DNA of 21,179 nucleotides, from positions 1 through 21,179 of the IMG/VR virus record IMGVR_UViG_3300021959_007709; one strand, given 5' to 3'. This document shows positions 11,575-21,168 of this stretch, one piece after another. This stretch comes from a virus. The position numbers and the translations under genes were made by a program. The notes beneath the pieces are model-generated. The model saw only the letters and a program-made list of their open reading frames with translations, was not told where the DNA came from and did no database searches. Each line of letters opens with the position of its first letter. The first letter of the stretch is position 1.

Positions 11575-11880
11575 ATGAGCGAATCATACTTAGACAAACC
11601 ACAACTCGACGGCAAGCCAGGAGGACATCCAGCATTTAAACGTGGTCAACTTAAAGGAGTACTTACAGTACTAAGCGTTGTTAAGCAAACAGTAAATGGT
11701 GCTGATAAAGGATCTGGAGAGTTTGGATCACCACAAATTGAAGCAGCTCGACAAGCAATTGTTACCCTCGTGGAGGCACTAGAAGAGATCTCTGAAGCAT
11801 CTACTGCCCCATCAAAGAAAGCACAGAAGGCACTTGAGGATGCTCGTAAGCTTGCTGAACAAGTACCATCACTTCGTTAA
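11575..11880 (+). CDS. Small hypothetical protein, 101 residues
   Basis: No recognised family. Residues 1-35 are polar with Gly/Pro (LDGKPGGHPAFKRGQLKG). Residues 25-43 include a hydrophobic VLTVLSVV strand or helix, and 53-101 form a helical Ala/Glu/Lys-rich region suited to a coiled coil. There is no signal peptide. It starts 5 bases after a late-like element and 33 bases after gene 43. It ends head-to-head with the minus-strand sugar block, the two stop codons overlapping in a single TTAA with no terminator between. A structural or host-interaction role late in infection is possible, but nothing in the sequence decides it. Confidence 0.75.
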   Translation: MSESYLDKPQLDGKPGGHPAFKRGQLKGVLTVLSVVKQTVNGADKGSGEFGSPQIEAARQAIVTLVEALEEISEASTAPSKKAQKALEDARKLAEQVPSLR

Positions 11881-13580
11881 CTCTCAACCCTTTCATCGGC
11901 ATTGTAATATACAATTCTATCGTGCCATATAGGACTCGCAAGAAGGATCGCTGGAGACAGCCTTCCTTCTTTTGTTAGTTGGAACATGTGAGACATCCAA
12001 GTTTGTTCATGTGGATGTGCCCATGTCTCCTCTAAAAACATCTTTCGATTACCCTCTTTACTAACAATCATTGGCCAGTTACCATAGTATACATCACCAG
12101 TAATGTAAGCTACACCATCAATTGTATTCATAGTACCCCATTCAGTCTTTGGGCAGTTAGGATCCAAACCCATAACAGGAAGCTTATGGTAGTTAGGGAA
12201 ATGTTCCTTACGAACATCATCAGGAACGTTATACCAAGAGCATTGATTGTCGTTATCGAAGTATACCTCAGTAAAGGACATCTTTAAGAAGTCAAAGTCC
12301 TCAACATAAGCAATCTTATGGATAATTTCATAGATGTTAGGTATGTATTTTCTAAAACCATTACGACAAACTTCACCTGCTTGATCAGGACCATTAAAGG
12401 TCATATCATCTTCAAAGAATAGATAGTAGTCAGCATCAGACTTATCGAAGTGCTCTGCTACAGCTTGCCTACCACCACATATACCAATATTGCCATCCAT
12501 TTTAACATACTCAAAGCCATGCATCTCGGCAATTGCTTGATTAGCTCGCATAGCTTCCTTATCAGTTGAGTTGTCAAAGATATACTTAGCAGGGTGAGTC
12601 ATTAAGCCTTCAGTCTCAACCATTGTCTTAATAGTATGAGTTAACTGCTCGGGCATATTGAACGTCAACATGTATAAGTTAGTCTTAAGCTCCTTTGTAA
12701 CATTGTCTGGAACTACCTTCGCGGTCTTAAATCGATTCTTAACAAAGCTACCATTAAGCTCTGCTAACTTAGCATTACCTTCAATAATGTCTTGAGTAAG
12801 TTTTACAATTAAGCCATTAGCCTCAATATCAAACTTTCTATATGTATAAGGATTAAGGTGAGCCATAATACTAAAGATAGATTCTTCAGTACCCATATAG
12901 CCATCACCTAATGTTGTACTAAGCAACGAGTAGTACTCAGCATTAGCCTTACCTATTACCTTCTTATGTCCACCAAATAGACCACCCCTACAAACATACT
13001 TGACATCATCACCAGCATAACTATTGATAGCAGGATATTCGAAGCCATGAATCTCGTTATTTGCTTCGTAGGGGAAGGCTACGAACATAAACTCATCCTC
13101 GGTAGTATACTTATGTAAACTATCTAAAACAGGCTCATCCCTTAAGTGACCATCAGGAACCGTATTGGTAATACCAGCGTCTAACCAATAGAAGTACTCT
13201 GTATCAAATGGGTTAAAGATAGACGCATCGTTAAGCATAAACATCTTTGATTGTACGATAGGGTTATAGTACTCGAGCTTATATTGTGGTGAATCTTCTA
13301 ACCAACCTGCACGTTTTACCCATTCATCCGATGTTCTTATCTCTTGAGTCTTATCCCAAAATGGATCATACATTCTCTTAACATCATTTAAGCCAAAGAT
13401 ATTGACATGAGTATTCTCTGGACTTCTATATTGCCATACAAAGTCCTCTAACTCTTCTGGTACATAAAGATACATGGGTTGATCAATAGATAGGAACTTT
13501 TCGAATGCCTCGATGTAGTGATCAAAGCTTCTATTGTGTCTCTTAATGTCCCAGAGACCAGATACTATAGTAGTGTTCAT
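11877..13580 (-). CDS. HtrL/YibB-like domain fused to a GT2-type glycosyltransferase
   Basis: Codes for 567 residues in two parts. Residues 1-275 resemble the HtrL/YibB (WlaTC-type) sugar-related family: TIVSGLWDIKRHNRSF at the start, YWLDAGITN (131-139) and CRGGLFGG (197-204), motifs shared with the separate gene just upstream. Residues 300-567 look like a GT-A fold transferase of the GT2 type: LYMLTFNMPEQL (302-313), YIFDNSTD (333-340), GNIGICGGRQ (363-372) and an acidic FFEDDM (388-393) in place of DxD for metal and sugar-nucleotide binding, then WAHPHEQTW near the end. No membrane segments, so cytoplasmic. The ATG overlaps the stop of the preceding gene by 4 bases. It is the last gene of the minus-strand operon. 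Donor and acceptor are unknown. Confidence 0.8.
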   Translation of the reverse strand: MNTTIVSGLWDIKRHNRSFDHYIEAFEKFLSIDQPMYLYVPEELEDFVWQYRSPENTHVNIFGLNDVKRMYDPFWDKTQEIRTSDEWVKRAGWLEDSPQYKLEYYNPIVQSKMFMLNDASIFNPFDTEYFYWLDAGITNTVPDGHLRDEPVLDSLHKYTTEDEFMFVAFPYEANNEIHGFEYPAINSYAGDDVKYVCRGGLFGGHKKVIGKANAEYYSLLSTTLGDGYMGTEESIFSIMAHLNPYTYRKFDIEANGLIVKLTQDIIEGNAKLAELNGSFVKNRFKTAKVVPDNVTKELKTNLYMLTFNMPEQLTHTIKTMVETEGLMTHPAKYIFDNSTDKEAMRANQAIAEMHGFEYVKMDGNIGICGGRQAVAEHFDKSDADYYLFFEDDMTFNGPDQAGEVCRNGFRKYIPNIYEIIHKIAYVEDFDFLKMSFTEVYFDNDNQCSWYNVPDDVRKEHFPNYHKLPVMGLDPNCPKTEWGTMNTIDGVAYITGDVYYGNWPMIVSKEGNRKMFLEETWAHPHEQTWMSHMFQLTKEGRLSPAILLASPIWHDRIVYYNADERVES

Positions 13581-14428
13581 ATAAATAGATGGTAAAATAA
13601 AATGTTATCGATGTTCTCATTAGCCCATTCATCTCGAGCATACCAATCATCGAACTTAAGAAGGTTATATTCTTCTGGTGTGTTAACTGCCATACAAGAT
13701 AAGATTAACTCTTCATGATAGAGTTCATTCTCTTTATCTAATAGAGTAAGTAGGAGTTCTTCAAAGCGTGTTGTAAGGTTATCATAAGCTTGAGGAGTAC
13801 CACCAAACATACCACCAATGATATGTCTTGATCTATCATACTCATTGTAATATGATTGAGGTAATGTCTGAGACCAAAAGTACCTATCATCATTGTTCTT
13901 AGAGAACATAACGACTTTGTCTTTTGATGCATTACTCCATTTAGATAGTAACTCAGGTGTAAAGAGCCTAATAAGGAAATGCCTCTCCCATTGATCACCC
14001 ATCATATACTCTTCTGGAAATAGACCACCATGTGATAGACCAGCATCAATCCAATACATCCTATCATAGTCATGCCTATCTTCAATAAGCTTTGACCAAA
14101 AGAACTTCATATATTGTATCTCATGACACCTATCATGACTCTTAACGAACTCTACATCTTTGTTCCTTTGTATTAAGTCATAGTGCTCACAGTTATAAAG
14201 ATCGTATACTCTAAACTCAAGAAGTTCCTTATCTACTTTTTGTACATGGTAGAACCAAGCCTCAAGCTCTGGTAGTTCCTCTTCACTTGTAAAGCATACT
14301 ACCTTAGTAGGTTTAGTATTAAGTATATTAAGTAAAGACCACTTGTAGTGATGATCACGACTCGTTCTACCACCTAAGTCAGTACCCCAAAGCTTAGTGT
14401 AAATAGATGTCAGTAGTAATGTCTTCAT
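13577..14428 (-). CDS. HtrL/YibB-like putative sugar-transfer protein
   Basis: Codes for 283 residues. It resembles the HtrL/YibB/WlaTC group, members of which sit in bacterial LPS and capsule loci and are thought to be transferases. Visible signs are the N-terminal strand LLLTSIYTKLWG, a central YWIDAGLSHGG (125-135) with the W/Y-x-D-x-G motif, and HIIGGMFGG (202-210), followed by an H/E-rich helix (NELYHEELILSC). The same three landmarks occur in the first half of the fusion gene downstream, so the two are probably distant paralogues. It overlaps both neighbours by 4 bases (ATGA), so it is translated as part of the operon. The precise reaction cannot be inferred. Confidence 0.75.
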   Translation of the reverse strand: MKTLLLTSIYTKLWGTDLGGRTSRDHHYKWSLLNILNTKPTKVVCFTSEEELPELEAWFYHVQKVDKELLEFRVYDLYNCEHYDLIQRNKDVEFVKSHDRCHEIQYMKFFWSKLIEDRHDYDRMYWIDAGLSHGGLFPEEYMMGDQWERHFLIRLFTPELLSKWSNASKDKVVMFSKNNDDRYFWSQTLPQSYYNEYDRSRHIIGGMFGGTPQAYDNLTTRFEELLLTLLDKENELYHEELILSCMAVNTPEEYNLLKFDDWYARDEWANENIDNILFYHLFI

Positions 14429-15687
14429 CCTATACTCGATTCTATTGCATCCTCAAAGCCATTACTCTCACTACATGGCCATACTCTCCACTTAACAATA
14501 TGTTCGGTAGTAGCAAATGATCTCCAAAGCTTAACATAAGTCTCTTCATTAGACTTCAAACGTTTGATCTCATCCTTATCAGCATCTTGACGATATACCT
14601 CTTCACCTTTATCGTTAAAGAAAGCTACTGCCCAAAATTCATAGTCATCACTCGGTACTTGATCAAAGCTTAAGTCAATACATAGCTTAAAGAAACCTTT
14701 GAATGAATCTTTATACTCTTTCTTATTCTCAATAGTAGGATTAGGTGCAAGCTTATTGTCTAGTGTATATTGTTGTATAGTCTTATCCTTAAAACGAACT
14801 CCTGCATACTTTTCATACTCAGCTAATGTACGAACCTTACCAAAGCCATACTTCCTCTTACACTCACCCTTAGCAAACTTCTCACCCTTAATACCAAATA
14901 GCTTTCGAACCCTTGAATAAGAATGTTGATTAGCTTCACCCCACTTCTTAGCATCATCCCAATGCTTAGGATTACCTTCTCTACCATAGTGATGCCAAGC
15001 TATAACTTTATGTGGGTGGTATAAATCATAACCATGTGTAAATGCTCTTGCAGCAAGACTAATCTCTTCACCATGGAAGTACATCTCAGGGTCATGTTGT
15101 ACATCCTTACTAAAGGCGCCATCAGCAAAAGCAAAGTGAGCAGAGAAGAATCTTGCCCTAGCAGGACCACCCATACTCTCCCAGCCAGGTAATGTAGCAG
15201 GTAATGTATGTAATGGACCTTCTGGACCAAAGTAGTTGAAGTTTAATGTCCATGGCTCGTTGTCAATAGGTTCATTTGTATCAGCATCATAAGCTGGTAT
15301 GTAAGATGTAATGAGAGGTTTCTTAGAACCATTAAGCTTACATTGAGCATACATCTTCTTAAGCTCTACATCCCAGTTATCAGCAAACCTATGATGCGAG
15401 TCTAACTGAAAGGTAAAGTCCTCACCTTTATATTCTTGTTGTATTCTATTACGAGCCCAGCAAGCACCTTTAGCTTTACGAGAGTCAATATCAATAATAG
15501 TAAATCGAGGATCATCTTGATACTCATCCAAGTGATCCCATCTGTCTTTTGGATGGTGTTGGTGGCAAATACATATATGTAGAGCATTAGGAAACCTACA
15601 AGTCTTGAGAAGGTCTTCAATAGTGGGTCTTAGTTCCTTATCTCTGTAAGAAGCAATTTGAATAAATATAGTGCTACTTTCGTACAT
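14425..15687 (-). CDS. GT60-like (Skp1 GlcNAc-transferase type) glycosyltransferase
   Basis: Codes for 420 residues. It matches the layout of the GlcNAc-transferase family typified by Skp1 hydroxyproline GlcNAc-transferase (GT60, Pfam GlcNAc group): IFIQIASYRDKELRPTI (7-23), HICICHQ (37-43), KGACWARNRIQQ (73-84), FQLDSHHRF (93-101) with the Asp-Ser-His metal motif, FFSAHFAFADG (180-190), MYFHGEE (202-208) and YHPHKVIAWHHYGR (223-236). The last 100 residues form an extra domain also present in the next gene (FFKLCIDLSFD ... VYRQDADKDEI). It starts 5 bases after the late element ATTAAATA. Late timing favours virion proteins as acceptors over DNA, by inference. Confidence 0.85.
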   Translation of the reverse strand: MYESSTIFIQIASYRDKELRPTIEDLLKTCRFPNALHICICHQHHPKDRWDHLDEYQDDPRFTIIDIDSRKAKGACWARNRIQQEYKGEDFTFQLDSHHRFADNWDVELKKMYAQCKLNGSKKPLITSYIPAYDADTNEPIDNEPWTLNFNYFGPEGPLHTLPATLPGWESMGGPARARFFSAHFAFADGAFSKDVQHDPEMYFHGEEISLAARAFTHGYDLYHPHKVIAWHHYGREGNPKHWDDAKKWGEANQHSYSRVRKLFGIKGEKFAKGECKRKYGFGKVRTLAEYEKYAGVRFKDKTIQQYTLDNKLAPNPTIENKKEYKDSFKGFFKLCIDLSFDQVPSDDYEFWAVAFFNDKGEEVYRQDADKDEIKRLKSNEETYVKLWRSFATTEHIVKWRVWPCSESNGFEDAIESSIG

Positions 15688-15692
15688 GCACT

Positions 15693-15700
15693 TATTTAAT
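15693..15700 (-). promoter_or_regulatory. Late promoter element for the second GT60-like gene
   Basis: Minus-strand ATTAAATA, 5 bases before the ATG at 15687, in the 20-base gap between the two GT60-like genes. It is the identical 8-mer, at the identical distance, to the elements at 1274 and 16949. Confidence 0.65.
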
Positions 15701-15707
15701 CCTGTTC

Positions 15708-16943
15708 CTATAGAGTGCCACTCCTACGCTCTAACCACTCACCGTTGTTAGGCCATACAATCCATTCAGCCGGTCTTGCTGTTACTGGTGCATCAATCCA
15801 AAGATTAACAGTAGTTCCATTTGTACAAGCAGTTACATCCTCAGCTGTATAGTCTTGTCTATAAAGATCGTTACCATCTTTATCTTTTAGTATGACAGCA
15901 ACAAATTCAATATCCTCTAGAGTACTCTGATGCATATCAATACAATGCTTAAAGATTCTACTAAATGAAAGTTTCTTATCTACTGGGGGTAACTCACCAT
16001 CAATAGTGGGTTGCTTAACACTTCTATCATTAAACCTAACACCAGCATATTGTTCCCAATCGGCAATAGTTCGAACATTACCAAGACCATAAGTTCCATA
16101 TGTCTCTTTCTTAGATAGTGACTCACCATCAATACCGAGTAGACCCCTCATTAACTTATATGTATCTTGATTGTGTTGAGTAATTTTACTATAGCTATCC
16201 CAGTGCTTGTCTGGTCTATAGTCTCTACTAAACTCGTGATAGCAAACCAACTTGTGTGAATGGAACAAATCATAGCCATATGTATAAGCTCTAACACCAA
16301 TAGTAATCTCTTCACCATGGAAGTAGTATCTTGGATCGTGAGGAACTTCTTCACAAAAAGTTCCTAATGTAAAGCAAAAATGAGCAGAGTAGAACCTTGC
16401 TGGTACAGGCATTGTTCTTTCTTGCCAGTTAGGTATACCATCTGGTCTAAAGAACACTACACCATCAGGAGTGAATCTATCAAAGCGCATTTGCCATGGA
16501 TCACTTGACCATTCATTTTTAGGTTGTGATGGATGGTAGGCTGTCATATAGCCAGTAATCAATGGCTTCTCATATCCATGTAGTTGTAGTTGTAGTACTT
16601 GATTCTTTAGCTCGGTATCCCACCCCTCAACAAACCTATGATGTGAGTCAAGTTGTAATGTAAAGTCTTCACCATCATACTCTTGTTGTATAAGATTCCT
16701 TGCCCAACATACCCCCTTAGAGTCTTTAGCATCTACATCAATAATGATAAACCTATCGTCACCCTTAAACTCCATTAAGTGATCCCACTCATCCTCTTCA
16801 CTATGTTGCCAACAAATACAAATCTTAAGATGTTCAGGTTCGTTAGCCTTGTCAATCATATCATGTAGTGTAGGTAGTAACTCACTATCACGAAAAGATG
16901 CTATCTGTACAAAGATTGATTTACCAGCATTTGGATTAAGCAT
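15708..16943 (-). CDS. GT60-like glycosyltransferase, first of a tandem pair
   Basis: Codes for 411 residues from the ATG at 16943. An in-frame ATG at 16976 would add 11 residues, but the late element at 16949-16956 ends 5 bases before 16943, so the shorter start is preferred. Family motifs run in order: IFVQIASFRDSELLPTL (10-26), ICICWQ (41-46), KGVCWARNLIQQEY (76-89), TLQLDSHHRF (95-104), FYSAHFCFTLG, YYFHGEE and HSHKLVCYHEFSRDYR. The C-terminal domain (about 325-411) carries FKHCIDMHQS and LYRQDYTAEDV, matching its downstream partner. The two are clear paralogues with strongly diverged sequence between motifs, so different acceptors are plausible. In eukaryotes the family adds GlcNAc to hydroxyproline. 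Confidence 0.85.
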   Translation of the reverse strand: MLNPNAGKSIFVQIASFRDSELLPTLHDMIDKANEPEHLKICICWQHSEEDEWDHLMEFKGDDRFIIIDVDAKDSKGVCWARNLIQQEYDGEDFTLQLDSHHRFVEGWDTELKNQVLQLQLHGYEKPLITGYMTAYHPSQPKNEWSSDPWQMRFDRFTPDGVVFFRPDGIPNWQERTMPVPARFYSAHFCFTLGTFCEEVPHDPRYYFHGEEITIGVRAYTYGYDLFHSHKLVCYHEFSRDYRPDKHWDSYSKITQHNQDTYKLMRGLLGIDGESLSKKETYGTYGLGNVRTIADWEQYAGVRFNDRSVKQPTIDGELPPVDKKLSFSRIFKHCIDMHQSTLEDIEFVAVILKDKDGNDLYRQDYTAEDVTACTNGTTVNLWIDAPVTARPAEWIVWPNNGEWLERRSGTL

Positions 16944-16948
16944 ACACA

Positions 16949-16956
16949 TATTTAAT
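16949..16956 (-). promoter_or_regulatory. Late promoter element of the minus-strand sugar operon
   Basis: Minus-strand ATTAAATA (TAAATA core) with the usual 5-base gap to the ATG at 16943. It faces away from the host-type promoter of the gene at 17018. Confidence 0.65.
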
Positions 16957-16980
16957 AAGGAACTTTTTTTAATCAAGTAG

Positions 16981-17589: not shown

Positions 17590-18744
17590 ATGAGTAATTT
17601 TGATAAAGATACCCTAGCGGCTCTTGACTCTATTGATAAGGTAAACCCTTTCGCTACTTACCTCGAAGATAGTACTCTATCTCGAGTAGGTGGTTGGATT
17701 GATACTGGTAGTTATGTTCTTAATGCTATTGTATCAGGTTCTATTCATGGAGGTATTCCTAAAGGCCGAGTAACAATGCTTGGTGGAGAGTCCATGACTG
17801 GTAAGACATTGTTTGTTCTTAAGATTTTAGCCAATGCCCAGAAAGAGGGTTTGATTCCAGTTATCTTTGATACTGAGAATGCAGTTGATCCAGAAGGTGC
17901 TGAACGTATCGGACTTGATATTAGTAAGGTTAAATATGTTCCTTGTGTTACTATTGAGCAGACCCGTAACGCTTTGTATAAGTTCCTTACCTCTGTTAAA
18001 GAGAAAGGTCTTGAGGGTAAGTTCATTGTAGCTATTGACTCACTTGGTAACCTTCAATCAGAACTTGAGCATAGCCGTATGGGTAAAGAGAGTACCGCAT
18101 CTGATATGGGATCAAAGGCTCGTGCTATGAAGTCTCTTATGCAGACTTGTACTAACCTTGGTGCTACTACCCAGACTACAGTACTTGCTACTAACCATGT
18201 TTATGATGATCCAGCAGCAATGTTCCCTTCTATTGAGAAGCATATGCCTGGTGGTAAGTCTATTGTATATCTTCCCTCAGTAACTGTTCAGTTGGCTCGT
18301 AAGCCTATGAAGAGTGATGGTGGTAAGACTATGGATGCTGAAACTGCTGTAGGTCAGAAGAACTATGCTGGTATTCTTATTAGAGCATTGACTCGTAAGA
18401 ATCGATTCATTAAGCAGTACCTTCAAGGTGAAATGTTCCTTTCATTCCATACTGGACTTGACCGTTACTATGGTCTCCTTGACCTTGCTGTAGGTGTTGG
18501 TGCTGTTATTCAGACTGGTTCTACATATCAGCTCCCTGATGGTAAGAAGATTGGTTACTATAAGAACTTCCGTAAGGATATTGACCTTTGGGAGAATACT
18601 ATCCTTCCAGTACTTGAAGAGAAGATTAAGACTGAGTGGGCTTATAGTGGCGGCGAAGAAGGTGAAGTGCCTGATGAGGTTGATGAAGAGGTAGTAGAAG
18701 AAGTAAAGCCAACTCTTGTTGACGAAGCATTAGACAAGCAGTAA
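17590..18744 (+). CDS. uvsX: UvsX RecA-like recombinase
   Basis: Codes for 384 residues (T4 UvsX about 390). It coats single-stranded DNA and performs strand exchange with the help of UvsY. Walker A is GGESMTGKT (65-73), the Glu of ATP hydrolysis lies in DTENAVD (94-100), and Walker B is FIVAIDS (145-151). The RecA-type LATNHVYDDP strand follows, then a mobile loop rich in Gly. The C-terminus (about 353-380) is strongly acidic, with runs of Glu/Asp, as in RecA-like proteins where it modulates DNA binding. It is a single-gene transcription unit with a terminator on each side. It sits about 14.6 kb from uvsY, so the pair is not co-transcribed, but both have the same promoter type. Confidence 0.93.
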   Translation: MSNFDKDTLAALDSIDKVNPFATYLEDSTLSRVGGWIDTGSYVLNAIVSGSIHGGIPKGRVTMLGGESMTGKTLFVLKILANAQKEGLIPVIFDTENAVDPEGAERIGLDISKVKYVPCVTIEQTRNALYKFLTSVKEKGLEGKFIVAIDSLGNLQSELEHSRMGKESTASDMGSKARAMKSLMQTCTNLGATTQTTVLATNHVYDDPAAMFPSIEKHMPGGKSIVYLPSVTVQLARKPMKSDGGKTMDAETAVGQKNYAGILIRALTRKNRFIKQYLQGEMFLSFHTGLDRYYGLLDLAVGVGAVIQTGSTYQLPDGKKIGYYKNFRKDIDLWENTILPVLEEKIKTEWAYSGGEEGEVPDEVDEEVVEEVKPTLVDEALDKQ

Positions 18745-18851: not shown

Positions 18852-19883
18852 ATGGCTAAGAGACATATTGGTACTACCGGAGATGACCGGACCGATGAGG
18901 CTATTGCGATGCTCGTGGAGAGTGTCGATTGCGATAACCCAAATCATCTTAAAGAGATGATGACTACTGCAGTACGAGTAGCAACTGGACCTGTACAACG
19001 AGCTGACTTCATGATGCTAAATAGGGCTATGAAGGAACTCGAACATACATGTGAGATGTTTGCACCCTATAAAGATAGACGTAAAGTAACTATCTTTGGT
19101 TCGGCAAGAACATCTAAAGATGACCCCGCATATATTGCTACTGAGATCTTCTCTAAAGCAATGGCTGCTAAGGATTGGATGACTATTACAGGTGGTGGTC
19201 CAGGTATTATGGAAGCAGGTAATAATGCTGCAGGTAAAGACAATACTTTCGGACTCGGTATTACATTACCCTTCGAACAAACTCACTCACAACTTGTAGG
19301 TGACCCGAAGTTCTATGAGTGTAACTACTTCTTCACTCGTAAGGTATCTATCATTAGAGAAGCACATGCATCAGTAGCAATGCCAGGTGGCTTTGGAACT
19401 TGGGATGAGATCTTTGAAGTACTTACTCTTGTTCAAACTGGTAAGTGTTCCTTACACCCAATCATACTACTTGATAGACCAGGTGGTTCCTATTGGCGTA
19501 GTGTAGATGCTGTACTACGAAAGGAACTTCACGGTAATGGAACTATCAGTGGTGAAGACTTTAACCTCTATAAGGTTACTGACAATGTAGTAGAAGCAGT
19601 AGAAGAGATTACTAACTTCTATAAGAACTTTCACTCATATAGATTCATTGAAGACAACCTTATACTTCGTCTTAATAAGAAACTTAGTAAAGAAGAAGTG
19701 AACAACCTTAACATTGAGTTTGCTGAGGCAATTTGTGATGGGCATCCTATCACTCAACGTAAGGCATTTGTAGAAGAAGAGAATAGACCTGACCTTGCTG
19801 ATAAGCCTCGCTTGGTTCTTAAGTTCAATAGACTCAACTACGGTCAACTACGAGTGTTGATTAACAGAGTCAATAGCCTATAA
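18852..19883 (+). CDS. LOG-family (TIGR00730-type) Rossmann-fold nucleotide hydrolase
   Basis: Codes for 343 residues. The central domain (about 75-265) has the LOG family signatures: VTIFGSAR (79-86), TITGGGPGIMEAGN (111-124), an Arg-Lys pair (163-164) in FFTRKVSIIREA, and the hallmark PGGFGTWDE (178-186). Known members cleave nucleoside 5'-monophosphates to base plus ribose 5-phosphate (plant LOG, bacterial cytokinin enzymes, E. coli PpnN); old records call them lysine decarboxylases wrongly. It has a 75-residue N-terminal helical extension and an 80-residue C-terminal extension, so it is longer than single-domain LOG proteins and shorter than PpnN. Key residues look intact, so it is probably active. 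It shares a region with queC; a role in reshaping the purine nucleotide pool is inferred. An in-frame TAA at 18834-18836 excludes a longer start. Confidence 0.88.
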   Translation: MAKRHIGTTGDDRTDEAIAMLVESVDCDNPNHLKEMMTTAVRVATGPVQRADFMMLNRAMKELEHTCEMFAPYKDRRKVTIFGSARTSKDDPAYIATEIFSKAMAAKDWMTITGGGPGIMEAGNNAAGKDNTFGLGITLPFEQTHSQLVGDPKFYECNYFFTRKVSIIREAHASVAMPGGFGTWDEIFEVLTLVQTGKCSLHPIILLDRPGGSYWRSVDAVLRKELHGNGTISGEDFNLYKVTDNVVEAVEEITNFYKNFHSYRFIEDNLILRLNKKLSKEEVNNLNIEFAEAICDGHPITQRKAFVEEENRPDLADKPRLVLKFNRLNYGQLRVLINRVNSL

Positions 19884-20118: not shown

Positions 20119-20373
20119 ATGCCATATATCAACGAAAAGGATAGACAAAAGTCAGGTCTTACCCATGAGGGTGACCTCAACTACCGTATTCATGAACTCA
20201 TTGAGATATATCTTAATGGTCAAAAGAAGAAAGGCTATGCTCAATACAATACAGTAGTTGGAGTACTTGAATGTGTTAAGCAGGAGTTCTATCGTCGTGC
20301 TGTCTCTACATATGAAGAGCGGAAAAAAGTTGAAAATGGTGATATAAGCCTCTATACTAAGGGTGATGAGTAA
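20119..20373 (+). CDS. Conserved hypothetical protein (DUF6899-like)
   Basis: Codes for 84 residues. MPYINEKDR at the start, GDLNYRIHELI (18-28), YNTVVGVLECVKQEFYRRAV (43-62) and YEERKKVENGDI (65-76) match a phage-associated family I recall as DUF6899, whose members share MPYI, LNY, EFYRR and NGD. No function is known. It begins immediately after the membrane protein's stop and overlaps the start of queC, so the three are read together, although queC also appears to have its own promoter within this gene's end. Confidence 0.75.
   Translation: MPYINEKDRQKSGLTHEGDLNYRIHELIEIYLNGQKKKGYAQYNTVVGVLECVKQEFYRRAVSTYEERKKVENGDISLYTKGDE
20330..20358 (+). promoter_or_regulatory. Possible promoter of queC inside the preceding gene
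   Basis: TTGAAA at 20330-20335, a 17-base spacer and TATACT at 20353-20358, 7 bases before the ATG at 20366. This supports ATG 20366 rather than the GTG at 20363 as the queC start. Confidence 0.55.
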
Positions 20374-21112
20374 GAAGTTAGTACTTAGTATTAGTGGTGG
20401 TATGGACTCTGTAGTCCTGCTGCATATGGCTGTAGATAAAGGCTTTGAAGAGATTCACCTTATTACATATAACTATGGTCAGCGTCATGTTAGAGAGATT
20501 GATTGTGTCCAAGGTCAGATTGATGCTGTAAAAGCTAAGTCACCTGATACTCTTATCACTCACTATGTAGCCGATGTTGGGTTTATTAAGTATCTTGCTC
20601 CTACCTCATCTCTAACTAATACTGATATCGATAACCCTGATATTAGTAAGATTGCTGGTGATGCACAACCAGTAAGCTATGTACCTTTCCGTAATCAGTT
20701 ATTCAATACTATTGGTTGTGCTTATGCTGAAGCTAAAGGTGCTGATACTGTCTGGTATGGTGCTGCTGAGGTTGATAGTCTTGCTGGTTATTGGGATGGT
20801 AGTAATGAATTCGTTAGTGCTATGAATGCTTTGATTGCTCTTAATAGAGAGAATCGAATTACTATCGATGCACCATTACTTACTATGTCTAAAGAAGCTA
20901 TTGTTGAAGAGGGTGTGAGGCTCGGAGTAGACTTTGGTAAGACTTGGACTTGTTACTCTAATAGGAAAGATGGATTGGCTGATGCTACTACACCGTCCTC
21001 GAGTATGAGAGTCAAAGGCTTTATTGATGCAGGCTATCAAGACCCTATTCAATATGTACAGCAAGATAAGCTTAGTGAAGTGTATATGGCTAAAGGCTGC
21101 AAGAAGATTTAA
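20366..21112 (+). CDS. queC: QueC-like 7-cyano-7-deazaguanine (preQ0) synthase with altered zinc site
   Basis: Codes for 248 residues from ATG 20366 (a GTG at 20363 adds one). QueC converts 7-carboxy-7-deazaguanine to preQ0 with ATP and ammonia. In phages preQ0-derived bases are placed in DNA to escape restriction. PP-loop SGGMDS (10-15), NYGQRH (36-41), YVPFRN (105-110), AEVDSLAGYWDGSNEF (134-149) and PLLTMSKEAIV agree with the family. The usual C-terminal zinc site, a Cys in TxTCY followed by C-G-x-C-x-x-C, keeps only the first Cys (C196); the rest is ATTPSSS. The enzyme may be zinc-free, or may have changed substrate. Relatives such as QatC and CBASS-associated QueC-like proteins show the fold can be reused. 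A terminator follows. Confidence 0.88.
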   Translation: MSKKLVLSISGGMDSVVLLHMAVDKGFEEIHLITYNYGQRHVREIDCVQGQIDAVKAKSPDTLITHYVADVGFIKYLAPTSSLTNTDIDNPDISKIAGDAQPVSYVPFRNQLFNTIGCAYAEAKGADTVWYGAAEVDSLAGYWDGSNEFVSAMNALIALNRENRITIDAPLLTMSKEAIVEEGVRLGVDFGKTWTCYSNRKDGLADATTPSSSMRVKGFIDAGYQDPIQYVQQDKLSEVYMAKGCKKI

Positions 21113-21131: not shown

Positions 21132-21168
21132 GAACTCCAAGAGCATTTCTGCCCTTGGAGTTCTTTTT
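21132..21168 (+). terminator. Rho-independent terminator after queC
   Basis: Ten-base-pair perfect stem GAACTCCAAG (21132-21141) with CTTGGAGTTC (21154-21163), a 12-base loop, then TTTTT. Confidence 0.9.

Follow-up and report, generated by a model that had tools for sequence, protein, structure and literature searches.

QueC enzymes carry a zinc site with the canonical arrangement C(x)8CxxCxxC (PMC13329287), and this motif is used to define the family and to separate it from look-alikes. Four residues of the Escherichia coli enzyme, Y35, R99, Y131 and Y189, are essential, and the Y189A variant is inactive (PMC13329287). In phage 9g and in archaea, a class-II glutamine amidotransferase (Gat) works together with QueC as a fused Gat-QueC protein, which in 9g leads to dG+; the 9g protein keeps its zinc cysteines and the phage encodes DpdA. 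T4-like phages also possess zinc-bearing QueC proteins, including those of KVP40, in which queC adjoins a DpdA2-like gene, and of Vibrio phage 2.275.O. No description of a QueC without the zinc site was found in the literature searched, which was partial in coverage.

The window analysed here comprises 21,179 nucleotides and represents, judged by gene content, a 21-kb fragment of a T4-like phage with genes for a UvsW-type helicase, the late sigma factor, SbcD/SbcC-type gp47/gp46, a family-B DNA polymerase, UvsX and UvsY. The first-pass annotation had placed at positions 20366-21112 a QueC homologue that has lost three of the four zinc cysteines; its coordinates, its reading frame and the loss itself are confirmed by PF06508 and by alignment. 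The locus is composed of the following features:

17590..18744, + strand, UvsX recombinase, the conserved gene upstream of queC (phrog_97)
20366..21112, + strand, queC-like coding sequence of 248 amino acids, zinc-less variant (PF06508, E=9e-47; AlphaFold2 pLDDT 89.9)
21132..21163, + strand, terminator-like 10-bp perfect inverted repeat with a loop of 12, followed by TTTTT, just 3' of queC (read from the sequence)

The ATG of queC lies at 20366 and is immediately preceded by a GTG codon, so that the listed open reading frame opens at 20363. The protein matches the PF06508 (QueC) profile over its full length (profile positions 2-209 of 210), and the closest solved structures by sequence are QueC 2pg3 and 3bl5, followed by Cap9. 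The nearest annotated relative of the window's UvsX is that of cyanophage S-RIM2 with only 33% identity, in a collection that may omit records very near the window; the window therefore has no close cultured relative in that collection. Two further gene arrangements are notable in this region. A LOG/SLOG-family gene, possibly coding for a nucleotide N-glycosidase or a DprA-like protein, is located between uvsX and queC (18852-19883) and is present only in the window and in L012 among 54 loci. An opposite-strand cassette with glycosyltransferase-like genes (11877-16976, - strand) separates the DNA polymerase gene from uvsX, and the relative L022 carries a different cassette at this position, which includes a carbamoyltransferase.

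With canonical QueC (E. coli, Bacillus subtilis 3BL5; PF06508 cluster 1), the window protein shares the fold, the SGGxDS, YxQxHxxE and VPxRN motifs, the Tyr and Asp of YPDC, the Tyr that follows the first zinc cysteine and a conserved Lys. Motif invariance was scored in an alignment of 32 sequences:

20393..20410, + strand, SGGMDS ATP-pyrophosphatase loop, residues 10-15 (SGG and DS invariant)
20474..20497, + strand, YGQRHVRE, the YxQxHxxE motif, residues 37-44 (Y, G, Q, H and E invariant)
20681..20695, + strand, VPFRN, the VPxRN motif, residues 106-110 (V, P, R and N invariant)
20789..20800, + strand, YWDG, the counterpart of YPDC, residues 142-145 (Y142 and D144 invariant)

The ATP loop is thus intact, as had been proposed at first pass, and the counterparts of the essential E. 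coli residues (Y37, R109, Y142 and Y197) are invariant in the same alignment. The companion statement that the substrate residues are intact holds for Y142 and D144, whose counterparts form the pair that reads the deazaguanine base in Cap9 and QueC (PMC13279940), and needs amendment for the motif around them, in which YPDC has become YWDG (P to W, C to G). As YWDG is also found in the zinc-bearing sister proteins, it is a trait of this phage lineage that is separate from the loss of zinc. The AlphaFold2 model of the window protein (pLDDT 89.9) finds its best PDB fold matches in QueC 3bl5/2pg3 and Cap9 9nto, and its best viral match in the QueC of PBPA162, a relative of phage Iggy. A model of the zinc-bearing sister L067 (pLDDT 93.7) shows its elements in identical order and shares all four top matches.

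The zinc site itself has been rebuilt. Three of the four cysteines of the C(x)8CxxCxxC motif are gone and only C196 is kept; after C196 and the essential Tyr, the window protein continues with SNRKDGLADATTPSSSMR. Replacements were assigned by gapless alignment of two divergent zinc-less sequences without an insertion, L054 and L058 (zinc loop SGDELSDATTPSSSLR), against the zinc-bearing sisters L062 and L063 (EGKEKACGECTACSSR). This match fixes D206, T209 and S212 as the counterparts of Cys2, Cys3 and Cys4, respectively. The features of this region are:

20951..20956, + strand, C196-Y197, the sole retained zinc cysteine and the Tyr matching E. coli Y189 (both invariant)
20981..21004, + strand, D206-A-T-T209-P-S-S212-S loop in place of C-G-x-C-x-x-C (alignment; D206, T209 and S212 invariant in the aligned zinc-less clade)
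21098..21100, + strand, C245, a C-terminal cysteine conserved in the zinc-less clade (invariant among 21 aligned)

Among 21 diverse zinc-less homologues, D206, A207, T209, P210, S211, S212 and R215 are invariant, a regularity well beyond what chance would produce. The resulting loop (D-A-T/D-T-P-S-S-S) is fixed and presumably metal-free. In comparison to canonical QueC, the window lineage additionally differs by a C-terminal extension with the conserved cysteine and by a separate gat gene nearby. C245 is present in 52 of the 55 zinc-less loci and the remaining three are cut off before this residue, hence all 52 complete sequences contain it. Since the defining zinc motif is absent, the protein is best classed as a QueC variant lacking the zinc site and not as a canonical member; from its sequence, it most probably works like QueC.

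The variant is widespread. A viral scan with peptide patterns that lie outside the zinc loop, and are not keyed to it, recovered 55 zinc-less carriers among uncultured, mostly marine T4-like phage contigs, with 56-91% identity. A second scan yielded 80 loci that all lack CxxCxxC; since the loop itself served as one of the two patterns and the hits overlap those of the first scan, this result speaks for abundance and not for independence. In cells, no zinc-less QueC was detected among the best 80 bacterial and archaeal relatives, which were found by patterns outside the zinc region and all keep the motif. Relative to sequences at 69-91% protein identity, dN/dS is 0.05-0.14, values that are approximate because dS is near saturation. 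The sequence comparison indicates a gene under purifying selection that is maintained rather than decaying, and the first-pass view of a specialised enzyme is upheld by these values together with the fixed substitutions and the conserved catalytic residues.

When the zinc columns were left out of the tree, the zinc-less T4-like proteins formed one clade (support 100/95) that is sister to four zinc-bearing T4-like sequences (L062, L063, L065 and L067). Both groups occupy the same uvsX-queC-gat locus. In 44 of 45 loci, queC is preceded by uvsX, and a class-II Gat, encoded as a separate ORF and not fused to QueC, lies downstream in 39 of 39 zinc-less loci. Gat adjoins or is near queC in all zinc-bearing T4-like relatives compared (the four sisters, KVP40 and Vibrio phage 2.275.O), and L063, L065 and L067 share with the zinc-less loci, where covered, the upstream uvsX and the gene order after gat. 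The YWD motif is likewise common to both, whereas CGxCxxC is kept in the sisters. The presence of this intact motif in the same locus points to a single loss in an orthologue and not in a side copy, and the tree and synteny would be best explained if this loss took place in the common ancestor of a large group of T4-like phages. A paralogue residing beside a normal QueC was considered and rejected, as each contig yielded only one QueC and the gene order is that of the zinc-bearing sisters. A glycosyltransferase-like gene (PF13712; L022 13778-14500 and its counterparts) follows gat in nearly all relatives, including the zinc-bearing sisters.

A second group of zinc-less QueC proteins occurs in the cultured phages Iggy, RHEph06, R5C, Bhz54, MMDA13, ZHS, ART, 83AMN and Me-ZS1. 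Here, all four cysteines are gone and the loop reads [YF]PP, with [DN]H a few residues on. On the tree, this group is distant from the T4-like clade and stands beside zinc-bearing phage QueC, which implies that zinc was lost at least twice; a common origin of the two groups was rejected because of this distance and their different loops. The Iggy-type proteins resemble the window protein in having lost zinc cysteines, in keeping the catalytic motifs and in residing within FolE-QueD-QueE clusters, whereas Iggy encodes DpdA, for which no match was obtained in the searched relatives of the window. For Iggy, dPreQ0 in the phage DNA has been reported (title of Olsen et al. 2023, as cited in PMC11008142). 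A phage with preQ0 in its DNA and a QueC devoid of zinc cysteines offers an independent precedent for zinc-less preQ0 synthesis. The Iggy host probably has its own QueC, so the precedent is only suggestive for the zinc-less enzyme.

The upstream pathway is absent from the window fragment and becomes visible in longer relative contigs, which encode QueD, QueE and either FolE2 (in four contigs) or FolE (in four different ones). QueF is the enzyme that acts on preQ0. It was found only in the contigs of 170.9, 154.6 and 121.9 kb, the three largest, where its catalytic Cys/Asp region is intact, a distribution to be read with the fragmentary state of the window and most relatives in mind. In the largest relative, G001, the queF gene is well inside phage genes, and QueF recurs in G017 and G018; the end of G001 (L084, 160001-170908) contains bacterial-looking genes and a doubtful tmRNA call and may be chimeric. 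Searches with four DpdA models (PF01702, phrog_887, phrog_10773 and phrog_7068) gave no match in the relatives searched, which are represented by contigs of uncertain completeness; phrog_7068 detects the DpdA of 9g, and two of the other three models matched no control genome. The pathway check proposed at first pass thus succeeded for FolE2/FolE, QueD and QueE and returned no known DpdA. DpdA families diverge strongly, and a phage lacking DpdA might supply queuosine for host tRNA or have a different route to modified DNA (Hutinet et al., PMC6884629).

Taken together, the window protein is probably a zinc-free QueC that still makes preQ0 with ammonia supplied by Gat; its metal-free state, its product, the way in which ammonia reaches it and the eventual destination of the base are all inferred. 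This proposal is backed by the retained catalytic residues, the QueC fold, the pathway genes and the presence of QueF in relatives, since an enzyme that uses preQ0 argues for a QueC that forms the nitrile. In the proposed route, the zinc-less QueC would adenylate the carboxylate of 7-carboxy-7-deazaguanine (CDG) with ATP, the neighbouring class-II Gat would free ammonia from glutamine, and QueC would take up this ammonia to give the amide (ADG). A second ATP would then activate ADG for dehydration to preQ0, which QueF could reduce to preQ1. The D-A-T-T-P-S-S-S loop would hold the region that is held by zinc elsewhere. The base might finally serve host tRNA through the host TGT, or phage DNA without a recognisable DpdA. 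Of the functions offered at first pass, a zinc-independent preQ0 synthase is hence the best supported, by the upstream pathway, QueF and Iggy; another deazaguanine such as ADG is less likely as product, and a different carboxylate substrate is unlikely because the deazaguanine-reading pair Y142/D144 is invariant.

The link of 9g Gat-QueC to G+ means that preQ0 may not be the end point, and the remodelled loop could alter the outcome, such that the reaction ends at ADG or, together with Gat, yields G+ or some other amidated deazaguanine. The constant neighbourhood of gat in the zinc-less loci would fit, as would the DpdA-less Campylobacter T4-like phages, in which all dG is replaced by dADG (PMC8306585; PMC6884629). 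We nevertheless regard this outcome as unlikely. All four zinc cysteines are kept in the QueC of Campylobacter phage CP21, which is of the dADG type: it shares ~92-93% identity with the QueC proteins of CP220 and CPt10, and the DNA of the latter two phages is fully dADG-substituted (PMC8306585). ADG formation therefore does not go with zinc loss, and dADG formation was rejected as its cause. In addition, Gat also accompanies the zinc-bearing sisters and so does not explain the change at the zinc site, and the QueF of the three largest contigs needs preQ0.

Rather improbable, too, is a replacement metal site formed by C196, the clade-specific C245 and either D206 or C47, with an enzyme that is not metal-free. 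The tail cysteine leaves room for another site, C47, C196, C245, D202 and D206 are invariant among the zinc-less members, and the tail is predicted with high confidence in the AlphaFold2 model, in which a bridge residue adjoins C245. However, T209 and S212 are poor zinc ligands and C47 is also present in some zinc-bearing sisters. It is very improbable that the protein ligates a different acceptor, for instance by attaching a deazaguanine to the N-terminus of a protein as Cap9 or QatC do. Such new uses of the QueC scaffold are known (PMC13329287, PMC13279940) and Cap9 9nto ranks high among the fold matches, but these defence proteins retain the zinc cysteines that the window protein lacks, and a small-molecule pathway and Gat accompany queC; in zinc-less loci, queC is flanked by genes for UvsX, Gat and a glycosyltransferase and by a helicase-like gene, with neither a CD-NTase nor a QatB-like protein observed nearby. 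Decay of queC, which the disappearance of a supposedly family-defining motif might suggest, can scarcely be credited and was rejected given the dN/dS values, the replacements fixed across the lineage and the invariance of all other catalytic motifs.

The zinc motif has thus disappeared from two or more unrelated phage lineages, one of which is large, and the rest of the active site has been kept. If these proteins still make preQ0 as favoured here, zinc would be a replaceable structural prop and not part of the chemistry, the rules for QueC annotation should change, and the role of zinc could be tested directly by comparing sister enzymes of the same locus.

A broader interpretation, which we consider doubtful, is that the deazaguanine pathway of these phages has shed its zinc in adapting to seawater with little of the metal or to a contest with the host over its supply. 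Some members would rely on FolE2 instead of the zinc-dependent FolE, joined by a QueD that lacks two of the three histidines for zinc and by the zinc-less QueC. Zinc economy as a rule for the pathway fits only partly and was set aside, since FolE2 and zinc-type FolE are evenly split (four contigs each). The altered QueD is found in seven of seven relatives (G001, G002, G006, G008, G017, G018 and G020), in which AAH has changed to an AFRQ-type sequence and HGH to HGY, while the counterparts of Cys27, Asp70, His71 and Glu110 are retained:

L290 2195-2686, and for example L071 1465-2076 and L070 1294-1971, QueD ORFs without two zinc histidines

Cellulophaga phage phi38:2 encodes a QueD of the same histidine-poor form, yet its QueC keeps zinc. 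In the QueE of the lineage (L080 15627-16385, and other contigs), the radical-SAM loop reads CX3CX11C in place of CX3CX2C, and the Pfam Radical_SAM model missed this protein. Finally, a GMP-reductase/IMPDH-type gene and a phosphoribosyltransferase gene are present in two large relatives, G001 (L076 8493-9533 and L083 13309-13746) and G017, and could be relevant if the base enters DNA via the nucleotide pool.
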